Assembly (NCBI GenBank): GCA_964019415.1
Contig: OZ025874.1
Coordinates: 2,377,512 to 2,441,511 of the forward strand
Direction: 5' to 3'
Length of the DNA stretch: 64,000 nucleotides
DNA from: Ianthella basta
Taxonomy: Eukaryota; Porifera; Demospongiae; Verongiida; Ianthellidae
This document shows, one piece after another, positions 41 through 61,194 of this stretch. The notes below the pieces were generated by a model. The model had not been told where the DNA came from. It did not search any database and worked only from the letters and a program-made list of their open reading frames with translations. Each line of letters begins with the position of its first letter. The stretch's first letter is position 1. The translations under genes and the position numbers were made by a program.

Positions 41-240
41 GCATGCATTCAATATCATTGTATGCTCATGTATTCAATATCTGTACATACCTACCCCTGC
101 CACTGGGAGAAGAGCTAGATAGAGGTACAGTCTGGCTGACATGGACGTGTCTAGGCGAGGTACGCCTAGGGGTAGGCTGTCTGGAGGTGACCAGAGTAGT
201 CCCTAAGTGTGTAATTGGACAAGACATCATGTGCATATTC

Positions 241-1660
241 ATCATCCGAGTGGATGATGAAGTGGCGTCCATAGAGGTATTGGTGAAATCTCTTAACCCC
301 AAATATGATGGCTAGGGCTTCCTTATCTAGCTGGGAGTACCTCTTCTCAGGTGGAGCTAAGGTGCGTGAGGCAAAGGCGATGGGTTTCTCAGTGCCATCT
401 TCCATGACATGAGATAGAACTGCCCCTAACCCATAAGGTGACGCGTCACAAGCCAACACCAGCTGTTTCCGGGGATCAAAATGTACTAACAGGTCTGCCG
501 ACTGAAGCAATTTCTTCACCTCCTCGAAAGCAGAACTCTGGTCCTTCCCCCAAACCCAGTGGGCCTTCTTTTGGAGCAGACGATACAGTGGGGCCGCTGT
601 GGAAGCCAGGCTGGGCAAGAACTTGCCGTAATAATTTACCAAGCCAAGGAAAGATCTCAGTTCATCCACTTGCTGGGGCTCCGGGGCTTCTGCCACAGCC
701 CGTACCTTGGCCTCAGTGGGTTGAAGGCCTTCCTTGCTGATCGGTGACCTAAGTACTCCACCTCCTGCATCAGAAAGGAGCACTTTGTAATAACTTGGGT
801 TCCAGTCGAGACGTCAAAACAACTTCCCCGCACTCAAACTCAATCAATGAATCAGCGGTACAACAGTACACAAGCACTCTAGACTCTAGACTGACGAAAG
901 TTACGGAAACATGCCAGCTTGTACACAACTGAGCAATTACAGATTCACACCAAAAACCAATTACAGGCAAGCACACCAGATAAATCAATTACAAGCTAAG
1001 CATATACAAATACAATAAGCACATGCAAATCAAGTACACCACACACTTCTCTTTCTTCAGTCTCAGCCCTGCTTCTTCCAGTCTTTTGAGGACCTCCTCA
1101 AGGTTCACCAGGTGCTCCTGCATTGACCTGCCTGAAACGAGTATATCATCCAGGTACACACATACGTTAGTGAGACCTTGTAGCACCGACTCCATGGTTC
1201 GTTGAAAGATGGCGGGAGCTGAGGCAACTCCAAACGGCAATCGTTGGTAGCGGTACAGCCCCTTGTGCGTGTTCACCGTCACGACTGGTTGTGACTCCTT
1301 GGCCAGGGGTAGCTGTAAATAGGCATGTGACAGATCTAACTTGGAAAACATCTTGCCCCCGGCCAGGGAGGCAAACAGGTCCTCAATCCGTGGCAAGGGA
1401 TACACCTCAGTATTGGTTGCCTTGTTTGCGGTTAACTTGAAATCTCCACAAATTCTAACCATCCCATTGCTCTTTAGCACAGGTACTATTGGAGCTGCCC
1501 ATTCAGAGTGTTGTACTGGAACTATCACACCCTCACTTTCCAGCTTGTTGAGTTCCTCCTCTACCTTCGACCGTAGTGCGTAGGGTACAGAGCGTGCCTT
1601 GAGGAATCGTGGCTGGACATTAGGGTCCACGTGAAGCCTTGCCTCCACACCTTGAATCAA
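241..1660 (-). pseudogene. Reverse transcriptase-RNase H pseudogene of Gypsy copy A
   Basis: The RT part (1044-1660) has the motifs WAAPIVPVLK, VYPLPRIEDL, KLDLSHAYLQLPL, LPFGVASAPAIFQ and the catalytic YLDDILVSG box. It is cut after a KKEKC sequence by a 258-bp solo LTR. The thumb and RNase H resume at 785 with EYLGH in one frame, shift by one base near 741, and continue through FLGLVNYY and the RNase H motifs CDASPYGLGAVLSH and PIAFASRTL to HSD near 248. The normal continuation into the connection and integrase is missing. Alternative: none plausible; these are hallmark Gypsy sequences. Confidence 0.92.
786..1043 (-). mobile_element. Solo LTR (258 bp) inside the Gypsy RT
   Basis: On the minus strand the segment starts TGTGG and ends TTACA, the TG...CA ends expected of an LTR. 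It is flanked by a 5-bp duplication, CACTT on the plus strand at 781-785 and 1044-1048. Removing it and one TSD rejoins the RT codons for lysine-cysteine exactly. It has no coding capacity. It is best read as a solo LTR left after recombination of a second LTR element. Its ends resemble the Gmr1-type LTRs at 43.7 and 48.6 kb, but the body does not obviously match them. Confidence 0.8.
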
Positions 1661-2897
1661 GCCCAGCCTGGACTGAAGACCATTTCATACCTATCCAAGA
1701 CACTCTGCAGTTCTTTCTCAGCTCGTACTGCAAGGATGGTACTCCAATCTAGCTTTAGCTTGGCCAGCCAGTCCCTCCCCAAAAGGCTCGGGCCATCACC
1801 TGCGACAACAACCAGGGGTAGTTGTTCCACCTGCCCCTGGCACTGTACCTTCACAGAAAGTTCCCCTACCACTGGAATTTCCTCTCCCGTGTAAGTCCTC
1901 AGCTTCACCATGGAAGGATGTAATTGTGGGAGTGAGCTCACACCACCAACCTGATTGAATGTGGCCTCACTGATCACCGTGACAGCGGCGCCTGTGTCCA
2001 CTTCCATGACTAGGTTATGATCCTCCACTGAAATTGGGGTCTGCCAAAGCTTGGCATTTGGGCCTGTAACAGGGTACATTGTATACTCCGCTGGAAGGTC
2101 TAGGACATCCTGTTGAGCTATGTGGATGGGCTGCTTAGGACCTGGGGTTCTGCCATCTGTAGGTCTGCTGCGCCACACCCTTTTGAGGTGCCCCCTTTTC
2201 CCGCAGGCATGACATTCCACATCCCGGAACCGACACTGTGTGTGGTCATGCTGACCACCACACCTGAAGCAGGGCTTCCTGTCAGCTGGGGGCTTTGCTG
2301 TCCCTCCATTCACCTTATGGACTGGCTCAACCGGGTGAGTCTCCACCTGCAGCAGCTCCTTGGCATCGCGCTCAGCCACTTCCATGGCCTGTGCTATTTT
2401 CATAGCCTTGTCCAAGGTCAAGTCCACCTCAGCCTGGAGACGCTGTTGGATTCTGGCCTGGGCCAGCCCACAAACTAGACGATCTCGAAGCATGTCATCT
2501 AGACTCTGTCCAAACCCACAATGTTCAGAGAGTCGGCGGAGTTCAGCAACATAGCTAGCAATGCTCTCACCTGCTTGCTGTGTCCTCGAGTTGAACTTGA
2601 ACCGCTGAACGATCTGAGATGGTCTGGGGTTGTAGTGAGCCTGAGCTAATTTCACCAAGTCATCGTATGGAACCTCCGTCGGCTTTCTTGGTGCCACCAG
2701 ACTACATATTGTGCTGTGACGTCGCCACAATAAGCGAGGAGAATTGCTCTCCGTTTCTCGTCGGTGGCGACGTCATTGGCGGTGAAATAACACTCCAGCC
2801 TCTCGATGTACTCCGTCCACCCCTCTGGGTGGCCCTGGAACTCACCAATGCTTCCGTGAGTGGCCATTGTCCGTTCCTGCTTTACCTTCGTCGCCAA
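1657..2897 (-). pseudogene. Gag-protease pseudogene of Gypsy copy A
   Basis: The reading starts with an ATG at 2864 (MATHGSIGEF) or slightly upstream and runs through a gag core to a frameshift near 2710, then continues in frame 1657-2730. Two CCHC-type zinc knuckles are seen (CFRCGGQHDHTQC and a second starting CHACGKRGH), followed by an aspartic protease with the DTGA catalytic motif (MEVDTGAAVTVIS) and the LLGRDWL signature that closes retropepsin domains. The frame stops just before the RT region, where related elements continue without a break. Gag would package element RNA and the protease would mature the polyprotein; here the frameshifts remove function. Confidence 0.88.
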
Positions 2898-3133
2898 TAT
2901 CGAGGTCGGGCACTATCCAAGCACAAACAACTGCGGACGCTAATGGTCACTAGCATGTGGTTCCACACCAATTACACCAGAACAAGGCACACGTGCTCCA
3001 TGCCAGTCACATGATACATAACCAATCAAAACTACATCCATGCAGAAACAGGCAAAACCAAATAATAATACAAGACCCCAGGAAACCACACAGCACTACA
3101 GGTAACACAACACAGCAACCATACAGTCACTAC
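2898..3133. other. A-rich non-coding stretch between Gypsy copy A and exon 8 of the KDZ-associated gene
   Basis: It contains CAA/ACA-rich sequence without a convincing reading frame or LTR boundary. It probably combines the 5' untranslated part of the retroelement with host intron. Confidence 0.4.
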
Positions 3134-19974: not shown

Positions 19975-20260
19975 ATGGCAGCGAAGTTGGAAGTGTCTCG
20001 CGAGGCGTGGAAAGCTTCCGTCAGAGAGCATCACAACGCACTAAGAACTGGCATCATTGTTGCCAACATCTTGCCTGCTCTTCGTACTGTGTTAACAGAC
20101 GTGGAGTATCGATGTATTGAGGCCAAAGAAGGTGATGTCGCCCGTGTTGATGAATTGGTCAAGATTCTGCTCACCAAAGATTACTCGACTTTTGAAAGAT
20201 TTTGCTTTGCTCTTCAGACGAATGGGTACGATCACTGGGCAAGCAAGCTGAGAGATGGAG
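19975..20260 (+). CDS. CARD-domain gene, exon 1
   Basis: Ninety-five codons starting MAAKLEVSREAWKASVREH. The whole exon is one helical death-fold domain: HHNALRTGI, IVANILPALRTVLTD, YRCIEAKEGDVARVDELV, ILLTKDYSTFERFCFALQ and YDHWASKLRDG match the CARD pattern of six helices, including the FxxFCxAL and HxxLAxxL-like end. CARDs mediate homotypic assembly in innate immune and death signalling. The exon ends on one base (phase 1) at a GTACTG donor and is continued by exon 2 at 23609. A 3.18-kb hammerhead array sits in the intron between them. Start chosen as the first ATG after the TATA-like tract. Confidence 0.8.
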
Positions 20261-20478
20261 GTACTGTTTGTGACAGTGACTGTATTCTAGAATGCATGTT
20301 TCGGTATTGTTGAGAGGTCGGTTCATTGCAGTAAGCCACTGCAACGGCCAGGCCGGGCTAGGTTGAACAAAGGCTAATCACTGGATATTACGCCTACCAG
20401 CCTTCTACACCGAAGTGTTTCAGGAGGCTGGGGGGCCGGAGCCCTATCGATGGCAACCAGTGATCGCCCTCCCCCATT

Positions 20479-20576
20479 ACTAGTCATCCTACAAAGATGG
20501 AAGAGCCACAGACAGCTGTTTCGCCCTGATTGGGGCTCATCAGTGTGGCGTACTGATGGAATGCAGGATGACTAGT
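20479..20576 (-). ncRNA. Hammerhead ribozyme, copy 1 (minus)
   Basis: Reverse complement of the motif described at 21453-21550; the CTGATGA and GAAA boxes read on the minus strand. Confidence 0.9.
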
Positions 20577-20843
20577 CACTCTTGTATCCCCCACCAGTGA
20601 AACACTTGTGGTTTCAACAAGAGCGAATATTAATGGGGGAAGGCTAAGTCATGAGCGTGACTTGCGCGGGATTGTTGAGAGGTCGGTTCATTGCAGTAAG
20701 CCACTGCAACGGCCAGGCCGGGCTAGGTTGAACAAAGGCTAATCACTGGATATTACGCCTACCAGCCTTCTACACCGAAGTGTTTCAGGAGGCTGGGGGG
20801 CCGGAGCCCTATCGATGGCAACCAGTGATCGCCCTCCCCCATT

Positions 20844-20941
20844 ACTAGTCATCCTACAAAGATGGAAGAGCCACAGACAGCTGTTTCGCCCTGATTGGGG
20901 CTCATCAGTGTGGCGTACTGATGGAATGCAGGATGACTAGT
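20844..20941 (-). ncRNA. Hammerhead ribozyme, copy 2 (minus)
   Basis: Identical to copy 1, one period (365 bp) away. The third minus-strand unit is cut at 21213 within the outer stem and lacks a ribozyme. Confidence 0.9.
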
Positions 20942-21452
20942 CACTCTTGTATCCCCCACCAGTGAAACACTTGTGGTTTCAACAAGAGCGAATATTAATG
21001 GGGGAAGGCTAAGTCATGAGCGTGACTTGCGCGGGATTGTTGAGAGGTCGGTTCATTGCAGTAAGCCACTGCAACGGCCAGGCCGGGCTAGGTTGAACAA
21101 AGGCTAATCACTGGATATTACGCCTACCAGCCTTCTACACCGAAGTGTTTCAGGAGGCTGGGGGGCCGGAGCCCTATCGATGGCAACCAGTGATCGCCCT
21201 CCCCCATTACTAGTCGATAGGGCTCCGGCCCCCCAGCCTCCTGAAACACTTCGGTGTAGAAGGCTGGTAGGCGTAATATCCAGTGATTAGCCTTTGTTCA
21301 ACCTAGCCCAGCCTGGCCGTTGCAGTGGCTTACTGCAATGAACCGACCTCTCAACAATCCCGCGCAAGTCACGCTCATGACTTAGCCTTCCCCCATTAAT
21401 ATTCGCTCTTGTTGAAACCACAAGTGTTTCACTGGTGGGGGATACAAGAGTG

Positions 21453-21550
21453 ACTAGTCATCCTGCATTCCATCAGTACGCCACACTGATGAGCCCCAAT
21501 CAGGGCGAAACAGCTGTCTGTGGCTCTTCCATCTTTGTAGGATGACTAGT
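21453..21550 (+). ncRNA. Type I hammerhead ribozyme, copy 3 (plus)
   Basis: Outer stem I ACTAGTCATCCT (21453-21464) pairs perfectly with AGGATGACTAGT (21539-21550). Inner stem I GCCACA (21480-21485) pairs with TGTGGC (21529-21534). Core CTGATGA is at 21486-21492; stem II is GCCC/GGGC around a six-base loop; GAAA is at 21517-21520. Stem III is minimal, ACAG against CTGT with no loop bases, and predicted cleavage follows the GTC at 21526-21528. A tiny stem III is known from metazoan hammerheads that act best as dimers, which a tandem array provides. The unpaired strands between the two halves of stem I could hold the tertiary loop contacts. Confidence 0.92.
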
Positions 21551-21817
21551 AATGGGGGAGGGCGATCACTGGTTGCCATCGATAGGGCTCCGGCCCCCCA
21601 GCCTCCTGAAACACTTCGGTGTAGAAGGCTGGTAGGCGTAATATCCAGTGATTAGCCTTTGTTCAACCTAGCCCGGCCTGGCCGTTGCAGTGGCTTACTG
21701 CAATGAACCGACCTCTCAACAATCCCGCGCAAGTCACGCTCATGACTTAGCCTTCCCCCATTAATATTCGCTCTTGTTGAAACCACAAGTGTTTCACTGG
21801 TGGGGGATACAAGAGTG

Positions 21818-21915
21818 ACTAGTCATCCTGCATTCCATCAGTACGCCACACTGATGAGCCCCAATCAGGGCGAAACAGCTGTCTGTGGCTCTTCCATCTT
21901 TGTAGGATGACTAGT
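21818..21915 (+). ncRNA. Hammerhead ribozyme, copy 4 (plus)
   Basis: Same sequence as copy 3, 365 bp downstream; all core bases intact. Confidence 0.91.
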
Positions 21916-22182
21916 AATGGGGGAGGGCGATCACTGGTTGCCATCGATAGGGCTCCGGCCCCCCAGCCTCCTGAAACACTTCGGTGTAGAAGGCTGGTAG
22001 GCGTAATATCCAGTGATTAGCCTTTGTTCAACCTAGCCCGGCCTGGCCGTTGCAGTGGCTTACTGCAATGAACCGACCTCTCAACAATCCCGCGCAAGTC
22101 ACGCTCATGACTTAGCCTTCCCCCATTAATATTCGCTCTTGTTGAAACCACAAGTGTTTCACTGGTGGGGGATACAAGAGTG

Positions 22183-22280
22183 ACTAGTCATCCTGCATTC
22201 CATCAGTACGCCACACTGATGAGCCCCAATCAGGGCGAAACAGCTGTCTGTGGCTCTTCCATCTTTGTAGGATGACTAGT
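22183..22280 (+). ncRNA. Hammerhead ribozyme, copy 5 (plus)
   Basis: Same sequence as copy 3; core and all stems intact. Confidence 0.91.
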
Positions 22281-22547
22281 AATGGGGGAGGGCGATCACT
22301 GGTTGCCATCGATAGGGCTCCGGCCCCCCAGCCTCCTGAAACACTTCGGTGTAGAAGGCTGGTAGGCGTAATATCCAGTGATTAGCCTTTGTTCAACCTA
22401 GCCCGGCCTGGCCGTTGCAGTGGCTTACTGCAATGAACCGACCTCTCAACAATCCCGCGCAAGTCACGCTCATGACTTAGCCTTCCCCCATTAATATTCG
22501 CTCTTGTTGAAACCACAAGTGTTTCACTGGTGGGGGATACAAGAGTG

Positions 22548-22645
22548 ACTAGTCATCCTGCATTCCATCAGTACGCCACACTGATGAGCCCCAATCAGGG
22601 CGAAACAGCTGTCTGTGGCTCTTCCATCTTTGTAGGATGACTAGT
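22548..22645 (+). ncRNA. Hammerhead ribozyme, copy 6 (plus)
   Basis: Same sequence as copy 3; core and all stems intact. Confidence 0.91.
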
Positions 22646-22912
22646 AATGGGGGAGGGCGATCACTGGTTGCCATCGATAGGGCTCCGGCCCCCCAGCCTC
22701 CTGAAACACTTCGGTGTAGAAGGCTGGTAGGCGTAATATCCAGTGATTAGCCTTTGTTCAACCTAGCCCGGCCTGGCCGTTGCAGTGGCTTACTGCAATG
22801 AACCGACCTCTCAACAATCCCGCGCAAGTCACGCTCATGACTTAGCCTTCCCCCATTAATATTCGCTCTTGTTGAAACCACAAGTGTTTCACTGGTGGGG
22901 GATACAAGAGTG

Positions 22913-23010
22913 ACTAGTCATCCTGCATTCCATCAGTACGCCACACTGATGAGCCCCAATCAGGGCGAAACAGCTGTCTGTGGCTCTTCCATCTTTGTAG
23001 GATGACTAGT
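22913..23010 (+). ncRNA. Hammerhead ribozyme, copy 7 (plus)
   Basis: Same sequence as copy 3; core and all stems intact. Confidence 0.91.
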
Positions 23011-23277
23011 AATGGGGGAGGGCGATCACTGGTTGCCATCGATAGGGCTCCGGCCCCCCAGCCTCCTGAAACACTTCGGTGTAGAAGGCTGGTAGGCGTA
23101 ATATCCAGTGATTAGCCTTTGTTCAACCTAGCCCGGCCTGGCCGTTGCAGTGGCTTACTGCAATGAACCGACCTCTCAACAATCCCGCGCAAGTCACGCT
23201 CATGACTTAGCCTTCCCCCATTAATATTCGCTCTTGTTGAAACCACAAGTGTTTCACTGGTGGGGGATACAAGAGTG

Positions 23278-23375
23278 ACTAGTCATCCTGCATTCCATCA
23301 GTACGCCACACTGATGAGCCCCAATCAGGGCGAAACAGCTGTCTGTGGCTCTTCCATCTTTGTAGGATGACTAGT
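23278..23375 (+). ncRNA. Hammerhead ribozyme, copy 8 (plus)
   Basis: Same sequence as copy 3. It is the last ribozyme before the array ends in a partial unit at 23490. Confidence 0.91.
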
Positions 23376-23608
23376 AATGGGGGAGGGCGATCACTGGTTG
23401 CCATCGATAGGGCTCCGGCCCCCCAGCCTCCTGAAACACTTCGGTGTAGAAGGCTGGTAGGCGTAATATCCAGTGATTAGCCTTTGTTCATGTTTCGGTA
23501 TGCGTACTTATTATTAAGTGGAGCTCTTGTCACTATTAGCTAGCTAGCTAGCATCTTTAAGTAAGTAAGTGTCTATCGTTTGTGTACACTTGGCCATTCT
23601 ATGTGTAG

Positions 23609-44075: not shown

Positions 44076-45701
44076 ATGCCGAGGAGAGGTGGGAAAAACA
44101 CCAAGGACGACGCAAGCGAAGCAGGAGCTGTGACGGAGACGGCTGCGTCCCTGGCGATGATTGACCTGCTACGTGAACAACAGCGTGTGATGACGGAACA
44201 GCAGCAGGAACAACAGCGCGCAATGATGGAGCAACAAAGGGCTCAGCAAGAGTTGTTACGGGCTGTTATCGACCAGCAGAAGCAGGAAATGACGGCGCAC
44301 CGGGAGGAGATGACCGCGATCCTCCAGAAAGTCACGGTGGTTGAGGAATGGCCTAAGGTGAGGGTGCCCAAGCCTACTCTACAGAAACTTTCCGTAGATG
44401 ATGACATTGAGGATTTCCTGAGTACCTTTGAGAGGGTGGCAGCCCAGCAAGAGTGGCCACAGGATGTGTGGGCGGTACAGCTGGCAGGCCTCTTATCAGG
44501 AAAAGCAATGGCAGCCTACACTAACCTAGCCAGAAAGGAGTCAGGAGACTATGCAAAGGTGAAAGCTGCTATCCTCCTGTGATATGAAGTAAATGAGGAG
44601 ACACATCGGAGGAGGTTTCGACAAGACAAGAAGCGTGGCAACGAGTCATACCGCAAGTATGTCAGCAGATTGCAGGATAGGCTGCACAGGTGGGCCAAAT
44701 CTCAGGACCTGCTGTGGGAGCAGATGATCCTACTTGAGTAGGTCTACAATAGCGTCCCTCAGGAGCTGGCTGTGTGGCTGCGTGAGAGGAAGCCACAGTC
44801 TGCACAACAGCTGGCTGAGCTTGCGGACGACTACTCCTTAGCAAGGCATGGCACAGGGGAGACTACATCCGTGAAGGATGTGGTGAGCAGCCCAGGGAGC
44901 AGCAAATCCAGAGAGTCGTTCAAGGGGCCAACCCAGAGCAAGCCACCATCCAAGTCACACCTGGACTCAGGGAGAAGTCAGACCAACTCGCGGGGAGAGA
45001 AGCAGTGTTTCCAGTGCGGCAAGTGGGGTCACCTTATGTACAGCTGCCCCAACAAGAAAGAGTTGAGGGTGAGGGCTGATCCCAAACCAGCCCTGCAGGC
45101 CTGTACGGATGTCGCCTGGAACACTGAAGGCAGCAAGTACTTGCGACGCGGGACAGTGGACGGTCGGAGGGTTCAAGTTCTGATTGACACAGGATGCGAC
45201 CAGACCATGGTTTCTGCCAGACGGGTACAACCAGAGAGGGTGAGTCTGGGTGATGGAGTGCCAGTATTGTGTGTGCATGGTGATACAGTGCAGTATCCCA
45301 CCACAGAGGTGGAGATTAGGATCGGGCCTTGGAGTAAGAGGGCCAAAGTGGCTGTAGCACCCAGTTTGCCAGTAGATGTCCTGTTGGGGAGGGATCTTTA
45401 CTGTCCAGGGGTGGAGCTGCAGCCAGGGTTAGGCCTAGCAGTGGTGACCAGGAGCCAGGCTAGGAGGGGCTTTGCACAGGGGGTAGCTCAGCCACAAGTA
45501 GATAAGGGCCCGGAGGATATAGAGGCAAGGGGAGAGGAGCTCCCCTGTGAACTGTCAGGGGATGGCTCAGATGACGTGGAGACAAGGGGGGAGGAACCCC
45601 CCAGTGACCAGTCGCTGGGCATGGATGGCAGCCTGGTAGACGGGTTGGAGACAGAGGAGGATGCCTGGGTGAGCAGTTGGCTGAGGATTCTGATGTGCTA
45701 G
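44076..45701 (+). pseudogene. Gag-protease pseudogene of the Gmr1-like element
   Basis: Starts MPRRGGKNTKDDASEAG, then a Gln-rich coiled coil (44180-44340), a gag core, and nonsense codons at 44580 (TGA) and near 44739 (TAG), both consistent with C-to-T changes. The open frame 44772-45701 has a CCHC knuckle (CFQCGKWGHLMYSC) and a retropepsin DTG (VLIDTGCDQTMVS) with DVLLGRDLYC. An acidic linker follows and the frame shifts near 45670 into the integrase part. Confidence 0.9.
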
Positions 45702-59084: not shown

Positions 59085-59863
59085 CGATCGATAACTATAC
59101 ATGTACAATCATGCCAGCTAGAGCCCCTTTGCTGACGCTTACTTTGCAGAGATGAGGAGGTTCATTATGTTTGCTTTGCTAATTAATTATATTAATTGCT
59201 AATTCACGCATGCCATGTGCATTTCTTGTCAATGATAAATTGGCAATGCTACGATGTGTGCCTACTTGCTAAGCCATGTACTATATATCTACTCTATCGA
59301 TCATGCATAGATCATCGGGCCTTTTGTGCTTATGCTTATTATCCTTTCCTTCTCAACCATTTCTACGCAGCAATTATCCTTTAATCTAGCATAGATCAAG
59401 CATGTAATGCATTTTTATATGACTGGACTTACACCCCTTTGGGGGACAAGTATAATCCAGACCAATATAGACCAACAAAATCAAAGAGCATATGTCCTGC
59501 CCTCCAGGGCTCACGCTCACTAGATAGGGACATATACAGTCAACATTCACCAGTACTCAAATACACTACAGATGTGTCTTCTGAGTTGGTCACCTATAGC
59601 TGCTTGTTTGTAAATTATAGGATTATTTAGCTAGTCTTGCTTTCATCATGTACTGCAAGTAACAGGCCTAGGACATTATGTCAGGCTGTATATGAAAATA
59701 TGTCAGTGTTTGCTTCATTCTGTTCGTATGTGCATGCAGAGAAACCAGACAGGTATTATGATTCATGCCATTCTTGCTTTCGTCTGTATATAACATTGGC
59801 TAATGTGAATGGATCATGGACCTTTGTTAGCACTCTGTTCATTCTGCTCCTGGATACATACAG

Positions 59864-61194
59864 ATGTACTGGTGCAGAAACCAGACGGGAAGCTTACAAC
59901 AGAAGAGCTCTCTTCCCTTTGGAATACTAGCAAATATGATCTTATAGTTGTACTGTTTGGCCTGACAGGAATGGGATCAAGCACATTAGGGAACTTTCTC
60001 CTTGGAAAGCATGTGTTTGAGGTCAGGGATTCTTCTGTTTCTGTGACTGATAAAGCTCAAGCGGACTGCTCTGTGCTGGACGGACAACGCATGTGCATCG
60101 TGGATACTCCTGGCTTTGCCAACACCCATCACATCAAAACACAGAATACTGAAGCAAAGAACCTGGCCAATACTGCAGCCTATTTCATTGTGGAGCTCAG
60201 CAAGACCATGCTGATGGCAAGGCATGGTGTTCATGTTTTCTGTATGGTTGTTCAAGCTGACAAGGTAGAATGGTTTAGCACCACAAAGCTGTTGGACCTG
60301 CTTGATATTCTAGGCAACAACTATTGGAACCACACCATTCTGGTACTCACCCACGGAAATATGTTTGACAAGACAAGTGAGGATAGGCAGTATGAGAAAT
60401 TTGAGGCTATGTTAAACAGCCCCAATTGTCCAGAAGTTTGGAAGACTCTCATTGAGAAGGTTAACAAGCGATATGTGATTGTAGAGTCAGAGGATCGAAA
60501 AGATCCCAGAGCATATCATGCAAGAAAGGTTAAGGAGCTTAAAGAGCACTCCTCTGCCATTGTGGCTGCTCATGGTCCATACAACGACACATTACATCCC
60601 TTTTTAAAAGAATGCATTGAGACTGCCAAACGTGAGTTGCGCAATGAGTTTGAAGATATGAACAGCCCAGAGGCCCAGGTTGCTGCACTGCAGGTTGCCT
60701 TTCAGAACATCTCAGCCATGTTGCACAAGAAATTTTGTATCAAGCTTGCAGGGGGAGTTGACACTGAGCTGTTGCAAGAGAAGGCTAAAGCAAAAGAAGA
60801 ACTTCCAAAAATGCTCAAGCAAATAGAACAGTTATATCAGCAGTTATCCAAAGAGCAGGAAGAAGAGCACAGGGCTCAGGAAGCAGAAGACAGAGCAAAG
60901 GATGCACAAAGAGCGGCCGAGGAACAAGCAAGGGTGGCACGTGAGGCAGAAGATAAAGTTAGAAGGGAATTGGAGGAGTACCTAAAGAAGCCTATATTTG
61001 CAGAAAGGGTTGTAGAGACACGTGTCTCAAGTGGCAACTTCTACTGGTGGGCGTGGGTATATTCTGCTGAAGCTGTAGATGTGGCTACAAGGATAACGGC
61101 TAAGGCTGATAACTACTTGACCAAAAGACGTGCCAAGAAACATGCAAGACTTAATCTCAGCGCCATCCTATTGGAAAGAGGAATCATTGATTGA
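59864..61194 (+). CDS. AIG1/GIMAP-like GTPase, last exon
   Basis: A single 443-codon exon after a CATACAG acceptor at 59863; it reads DVLVQKPDGKLTTEELSSLW and ends LLERGIID. The frame is open upstream to 59809, but that stretch looks like intron, so one or more small 5' exons are missing from the model. AIG1 signature: G1 region LIVVLFGLTGMGSSTLGNFL, G3 IVDTPGFANTHHI, a middle ILVLTHGNMFDKTSE (the conserved-box position), then a helical tail with an Ala/Glu/Arg-rich coiled coil (about 60840-60990). GIMAPs are membrane-associated immune GTPases. The P-loop lysine is replaced by serine (GMGSST). A Trp-rich FYWWAWVYS follows the coiled coil. Family call is firm; activity is doubtful. Confidence 0.85.

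Follow-up and report, generated by a model that had tools for sequence, protein, structure and literature searches.

The window, a 64,000-nucleotide stretch of the Ianthella basta genome, carries an array of hammerhead ribozymes in an intron of a CARD-domain gene, inserted just after the CARD exon (Table 1). The initial annotation had placed the array in an intron of an immune-type gene, which this host bears out. Elsewhere in the window, ORFs at 166-2772 (minus strand) and 44742-45701 (plus strand) resemble, by eye, Gypsy-type retrotransposon pol and gag. An AIG1/GIMAP-like GTPase ORF, of which close copies exist, lies at 59809-61194 (plus strand), and PF04548 is listed for it and its relatives.

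Table 1 Features of the host gene and of the ribozyme array in the window
Feature	Positions	Strand	Source or remark
CARD-domain exon 5' of the insertion	19975..20260	+	Exon end by eye
Intron with the insertion	20261..23608	+	About 150 bp without it; GT/AG by eye
Target-site duplication, left copy	20295..20307	.	13 bp, CATGTTTCGGTAT
Left arm, about 2.5 units, ribozyme sense minus	20308..21215	-	Outer end at site B (u ~240-244), carrying the 53-nt tail
Type I hammerhead	20505..20549	-	Rfam
Type I hammerhead	20870..20914	-	Rfam
Inner arm junction	21213..21216	.	TC shared; unit coordinates differ on the two sides
Right arm, about 6.2 units, ribozyme sense plus	21214..23488	+	Outer end at site A (u186), without tail
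Type I hammerhead	21480..21524	+	Rfam
Type I hammerhead	21845..21889	+	Rfam
Type I hammerhead	22210..22254	+	Rfam; 22210 is u1 of the unit numbering
Tail domain, u187-239 in one unit	22396..22448	+	Between candidate start sites A and B; hairpin GTTGCAGTGGCTTACTGCAAT, then GAACC..CTCTCA
Type I hammerhead	22575..22619	+	Rfam
Type I hammerhead	22940..22984	+	Rfam
Type I hammerhead	23305..23349	+	Rfam
Target-site duplication, right copy	23489..23501	.

A covariance-model check with Rfam recovered all eight of the type I hammerheads that had been proposed, as Hammerhead_1 (RF00163) matches within 20505-23349 of 38.7 bits each (gathering score 34), two on the minus and six on the plus strand. The Rfam alignments contain the core elements previously described from the letters alone, namely CTGATGA, a 4-bp stem II, GAAA, a short stem III (CAGCTG), GTC and a 6-bp inner stem I, and a 12-bp outer stem I (ACTAGTCATCCT / AGGATGACTAGT) is apparent on visual inspection. 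The repeat period confirmed units of 365 bp, with a GC content of 52.9%. The units had also been called almost identical, and across both arms only position 21310 deviates from the unit, the five full units of the right arm all being identical. The insertion is young.

The eight ribozymes do not form a single head-to-tail row. The insertion (20308-23488) is bounded by two copies of its target sequence and consists of two head-to-head arms, with an inversion point at about 21214 where 2 bp are common to both. The initial annotation did not recognise this inverted two-arm layout, nor did it note the target duplication, the fixed position of both ends or a connection with Penelope-like elements (PLEs). 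Two paralogous genes provide empty sites: the insertion is absent from both, with one copy of CATGTTTCGGTAT in the first (C2:11695850-11696080) and one target copy, CATGTTTCAGTAT, in the second (C3:1071380-1071640).

No LTR was seen in the sequence of the insertion, and the listing of ORFs of at least 200 aa has none inside 20308-23488, where a PLE would have an ORF for reverse transcriptase (RT) and GIY-YIG endonuclease. Together with the type I hammerhead, the 365-bp units, the dispersed copies and the target duplication, this supports the proposed identity as a retrozyme. Its RNA is predicted to pair with itself. In the CARD-gene transcript, the two arms could pair almost perfectly over about 900 bp; this hairpin, with the six sense hammerheads in the intron, might give rise to dsRNA or to cleavage of the intron.

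Two fixed outer ends in dispersed copies

An Rfam search of the genome itself listed 18 hammerheads, none of them from the window array, and we therefore used pattern searches. In the 209-Mb genome, the ribozyme core gave 743 matches (402 + 341) at up to three mismatches and its reversed control gave none at the same threshold, so the core is not a chance pattern. A second unit motif gave 246 + 209 matches genome-wide, and its control 0. The matches listed (about 100 per pattern), with places derived from alignments, formed 124 clusters; sequences were fetched for 60 of these, all on C1 to C7. Among the places listed, 36 clusters had both strands, and 35 of them ran minus then plus. The remaining cluster (C4:3407037, L081) ran minus-plus-minus-plus and comprises two insertions in a palindrome. 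This 2.65-kb palindrome (L081:667-3320) is near-perfect (99.1%), carries two mirrored insertions of a second, 374-bp hammerhead family (family 2), and may be real or an assembly fold-back.

Unit coordinates (u1-365) were counted from window position 22210. The family of the window (family 1) yielded 24 two-arm insertions with a minus arm on the left and a plus arm on the right, the window included; L053, L063, L064 and L081, which belong to family 2, and L087, an amplified satellite, are excluded from this count although each of them has copies on both strands. One outer end lay at site A (u ~186) and the other at site B (u ~240) in 22 of the 24. Equal outer ends (A+A or B+B) occurred in none of the 24, and the other two, L079 and L082, each had one non-canonical outer end. 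The tabulated ends were one of each in 21/21 insertions, with L097 as the 22nd A/B locus; by our arithmetic, independent and equal use of the two ends would give 22/22 with a probability of 2^-22. Target duplications of 10-15 bp, all different, accompanied 21 of the 22 A/B insertions, the exception being L069.

Among the 21 insertions scanned, B ends fell at u239-244 in 20 and A ends at u184-190 in 17. The A end of L100 is 181, the value of 230 from the microhomology scan being an artefact. Target and element shared at least 2 nt at 17/21 B ends (chance estimated at about 16%) and at 12/21 A ends, where the scan halts at subfamily mismatches (mean 0.71 against 0.67 by chance). Beyond the fetched loci, only clear alignment ends were scored, with divergent C14 copies and others left out. 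On these alignment ends, ten further loci agreed: C7:4583926, C9:3510189 (183), C9:3529246, C11:3212543, C11:4244765, C13:3589521, C13:5993195 (178), C18:3573848, C18:3585168 (190) and C21:3037056 (237/191).

About half of the family-1 loci examined (24) had a single arm, and seven of these 24 had a duplication of at least 11 bp. The shortest family-1 insertions measure 30, 38 and 81 bp (L089:888-917, L080:866-903 and L062:951-1031); each has one end at or near A or B and a target duplication of 11-14 bp, and they are extreme early stops.

Other hammerhead families gave the same picture, in counts that are biased because the loci were chosen where self-alignment or earlier scans suggested two arms. 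In family 2, an A-type and a B-type end with a duplication were found at L012, L053, L072, L088 and L102, the duplication of L053 being absent in the scan and found by eye. In family 3, one-of-each ends with a duplication occurred at three independent loci, L010, L011 and L014 (L015 duplicates L014; the ends of L011 and L014 were read by eye). Of 13 candidate loci, seven fitted (L010, L011, L012, L014, L072, L088 and L102); in the same set, L009 and L099 had no duplication, and L060 and L063 had only internal repeats. For families 1 and 3, folding predictions place a hairpin of the TGCAG/CTGCA type between sites A and B; family 2 has such a motif, yet its predicted fold differs.

Inner junctions and the RNA template

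At the inner junction, the two arms met at unequal unit coordinates in 20 of 21 insertions. The sole symmetric junction among the 21 (L065:991-1140, u141/u141) was possibly formed by a different route. The ribozyme cut site was crossed by 30 of 42 arms, none of the 42 ended within u37-43, and 13 were longer than one unit. These results indicate a template joined across the cut site, as it would be in a circle or in a multimer left uncleaved, but not in linear monomers produced by cleavage.

The arms of one insertion differed at 92 of 4144 positions (2.2%), and those of different insertions at 3029 of 80592 (3.8%); random re-pairing of arms reached the observed mean in none of 20000 permutations. 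Arms of the same insertion were sometimes unlike, with up to 11 differences in 90 positions in L051, which we count against a PLE-based model; age may or may not explain such differences.

Of the two templates, the circle is the likeliest. It is rather unlikely that insertion, otherwise by the PLE route, used an uncleaved multimeric transcript of an existing array, with no circle. Existing arrays could yield such RNA, and hammerhead cleavage is dispensable for PLE insertion in vitro (PMC11167929), but the five identical full units in one arm stand against the 3.8% divergence between loci, and monomer circles are abundant among the published RNAs of animal retrozymes (PMC7229834).

Another route to an inverted repeat is self-priming, in which one cDNA, or one antisense RNA, doubles back and acts as its own template. 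Arkhipova 2013 offered this for PLE palindromes and inverted pLTRs in Adineta (PMC3846280), and it would suit the equal inner coordinates of L065 and the near-identical arms of two resident PLE copies, L107 and L108. The unequal inner coordinates of the other 20 insertions argue against a hairpin or snap-back origin, however, and the outer ends are two distinct fixed sites, not mirror images. We consider such an origin quite improbable for the retrozyme insertions.

Resident Penelope-like elements and a proposed mechanism

The same anatomy recurs in the PLEs of this genome, where GIY-YIG matches are often paired minus then plus. We counted 13 such pairs and examined six, four of them read from fetched ends. 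L107 and L108 are PLE copies in head-to-head arms; GIY-YIG scored above the Pfam cut-off in both, and RVT_1 was found in L107 only, below the cut-off. In five of the six PLE insertions a single arm bore a tail, of about 35-39 nt, and 9-15 bp of target were duplicated (ATTGAATGT, CAAGAATATCACATG, TTGAACAGTTAA, TTCTACGTAGAT and TTAACGATTAAATG). The pair L113/L114 is off the rule, its right arm diverging upstream of the 3' end. The PLE tails have GCAATGAACC or GTAATGAACC, and GCAATGAACC is common to one PLE tail and the retrozyme tail. Because the tails are alike only over a short stretch, we assign no particular PLE family as the driver. Window-family insertions show inverted copies, a target duplication and a one-arm tail, as expected of a PLE-type integration product.

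Rfam, at E up to 0.5, gave no hammerhead in L107 or L108. A putative minimal hammerhead (CTGATGA..GAAACGTC), with a palindromic ACGT instead of stem III, was seen by eye in the PLE 3' region at about 2601-2640 of L107 and 2293-2332 of L108.

Twin priming is known for LINE-1, in which both target strands prime on one RNA and produce an inversion with a target duplication, as here. In LINE-1, however, one of the two points is at the 3' end of the RNA, and inversions arise only now and then, whereas here both points are fixed and internal and the form is common. A LINE instead of a PLE as the mover seems very improbable: LINEs are the alternative listed by the authors who regard PLEs as a strong candidate driver of animal retrozymes (PMC7229834), and both are named as candidate movers in PMC7229834 and PMC11722881, but the resident PLEs, the elements that our comparison covered, have similar outer ends and a similar one-sided tail. 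An ordinary satellite, grown by unequal crossing-over or DNA rolling circles and then inverted, is scarcely credible, since the empty paralogues and the target duplication argue against it at the window locus, and the target duplications and two fixed ends do so at dispersed loci, even though some copies are amplified within larger repeats (C21:3037056-3060000, in tandem units of about 2.2 kb, and L087:1-1960, in units of 386 bp). Those copies are retrozymes turned satellite DNA.

We therefore favour, on sequence comparisons, the reading that the window insertion is probably a non-autonomous hammerhead retrozyme inserted by PLE machinery, through twin-primed reverse transcription on circular or multimeric RNA. 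As in published animal retrozymes, a genomic unit would be transcribed and would cleave itself, and a host ligase would circularise the product. A PLE RT and GIY-YIG endonuclease, probably as a dimer, would then bind the 53-nt domain. A staggered double cut would follow, each freed 3' end pairing with the RNA over 2-3 nt, as the target duplications of 10-15 bp and the microhomology suggest. The two target strands would prime at different sites flanking the 53-nt domain, one at A and one at B, and each cDNA would copy part of a unit or several units. Finally, the two cDNAs would be joined internally at a few shared or added bases, giving an array of two inverted arms, head to head, of which only one has a tail, with a target duplication around it. 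The DNA sequence itself shows the two-arm insertion with its target duplication and empty sites, the use of each fixed end once, copying across the cut site and the matching anatomy of the resident PLEs; the enzyme is inferred. The PLE enzyme would be the driver, RNA circles the template, and a dimer would assign each target strand its own start site.

Published biochemistry bears on this scheme in both directions. The Anolis PLE enzyme cleaves the two strands of its target and extends each of them, and its RT starts at two adjacent internal RNA sites, the interval between which is the genomic tail (PMC11167929). Against the PLE-based model, Frangieh 2024 observed in vitro start sites that did not differ between the strands, and reported that priming is non-homologous, with a preference for ATT (PMC11167929), whereas the B end of the retrozyme has 2-3 nt of homology. 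The near-chance homology at A ends, the short extent of the match between PLE and retrozyme tails, the many single-arm loci, the symmetric junction of L065 and the PLE pair L113/L114 weigh against it too.

Relation to known elements

Metazoan non-LTR retrozymes are established (Cervera and de la Pena 2020, PMC7229834). The element described here resembles them in its canonical type I hammerhead per unit, a tandem unit within about 170-400 bp, dispersed copies, a target duplication of more than 4 bp, the lack of LTR and protein, and self-paired RNA (predicted here). It differs in its head-to-head arms, two fixed ends and one-sided tail, and in a GC content above the <50% reported as typical, which we take as non-defining. 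It shares with PLEs (PMC3846280; PMC11167929) the head-to-head inverted repeats, target duplications of similar size, the one-arm tail and two adjacent RT start sites. Arkhipova 2013 reports pLTRs in inverted orientation, one of them with a tail, and duplications of 8-10 bp (PMC3846280). Unlike PLEs, the retrozyme has no protein, mostly asymmetric junctions, a canonical instead of a minimal hammerhead, and a tail of 53 nt against 30-40 bp.

The main text of PMC7229834 uses none of the words inverted, opposite and head-to-head. In the literature searched, mostly open papers in their main texts without supplements, there was no earlier description of two-arm retrozymes; the accessible parts of PMC7761336 and PMC11722881 give no such account, and those of PMC8490949 and PMC12910113 no such anatomy. 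The same literature contained no paper on hammerhead ribozymes in sponges (Porifera). Retrozymes and PLEs are known, and two-arm retrozymes appear to be new.

We lean, if only slightly, towards a broader reading of the comparisons. Hammerhead retrozymes may be satellites of PLEs that carry a two-site priming domain, with a PLE RT dimer priming both strands on one circle; the same one-of-each rule would build PLE insertions and would explain their one-sided tail, a long-standing puzzle, without self-priming.

The genome of I. basta preserves numerous retrozyme and PLE insertions that have two fixed ends, and this ties the parasite to its likely helper. It yields a prediction for PLE biochemistry, that the two strands of any one target are primed at different RNA sites, and a simple mark by which PLE-driven non-autonomous elements could be recognised elsewhere among genomes.
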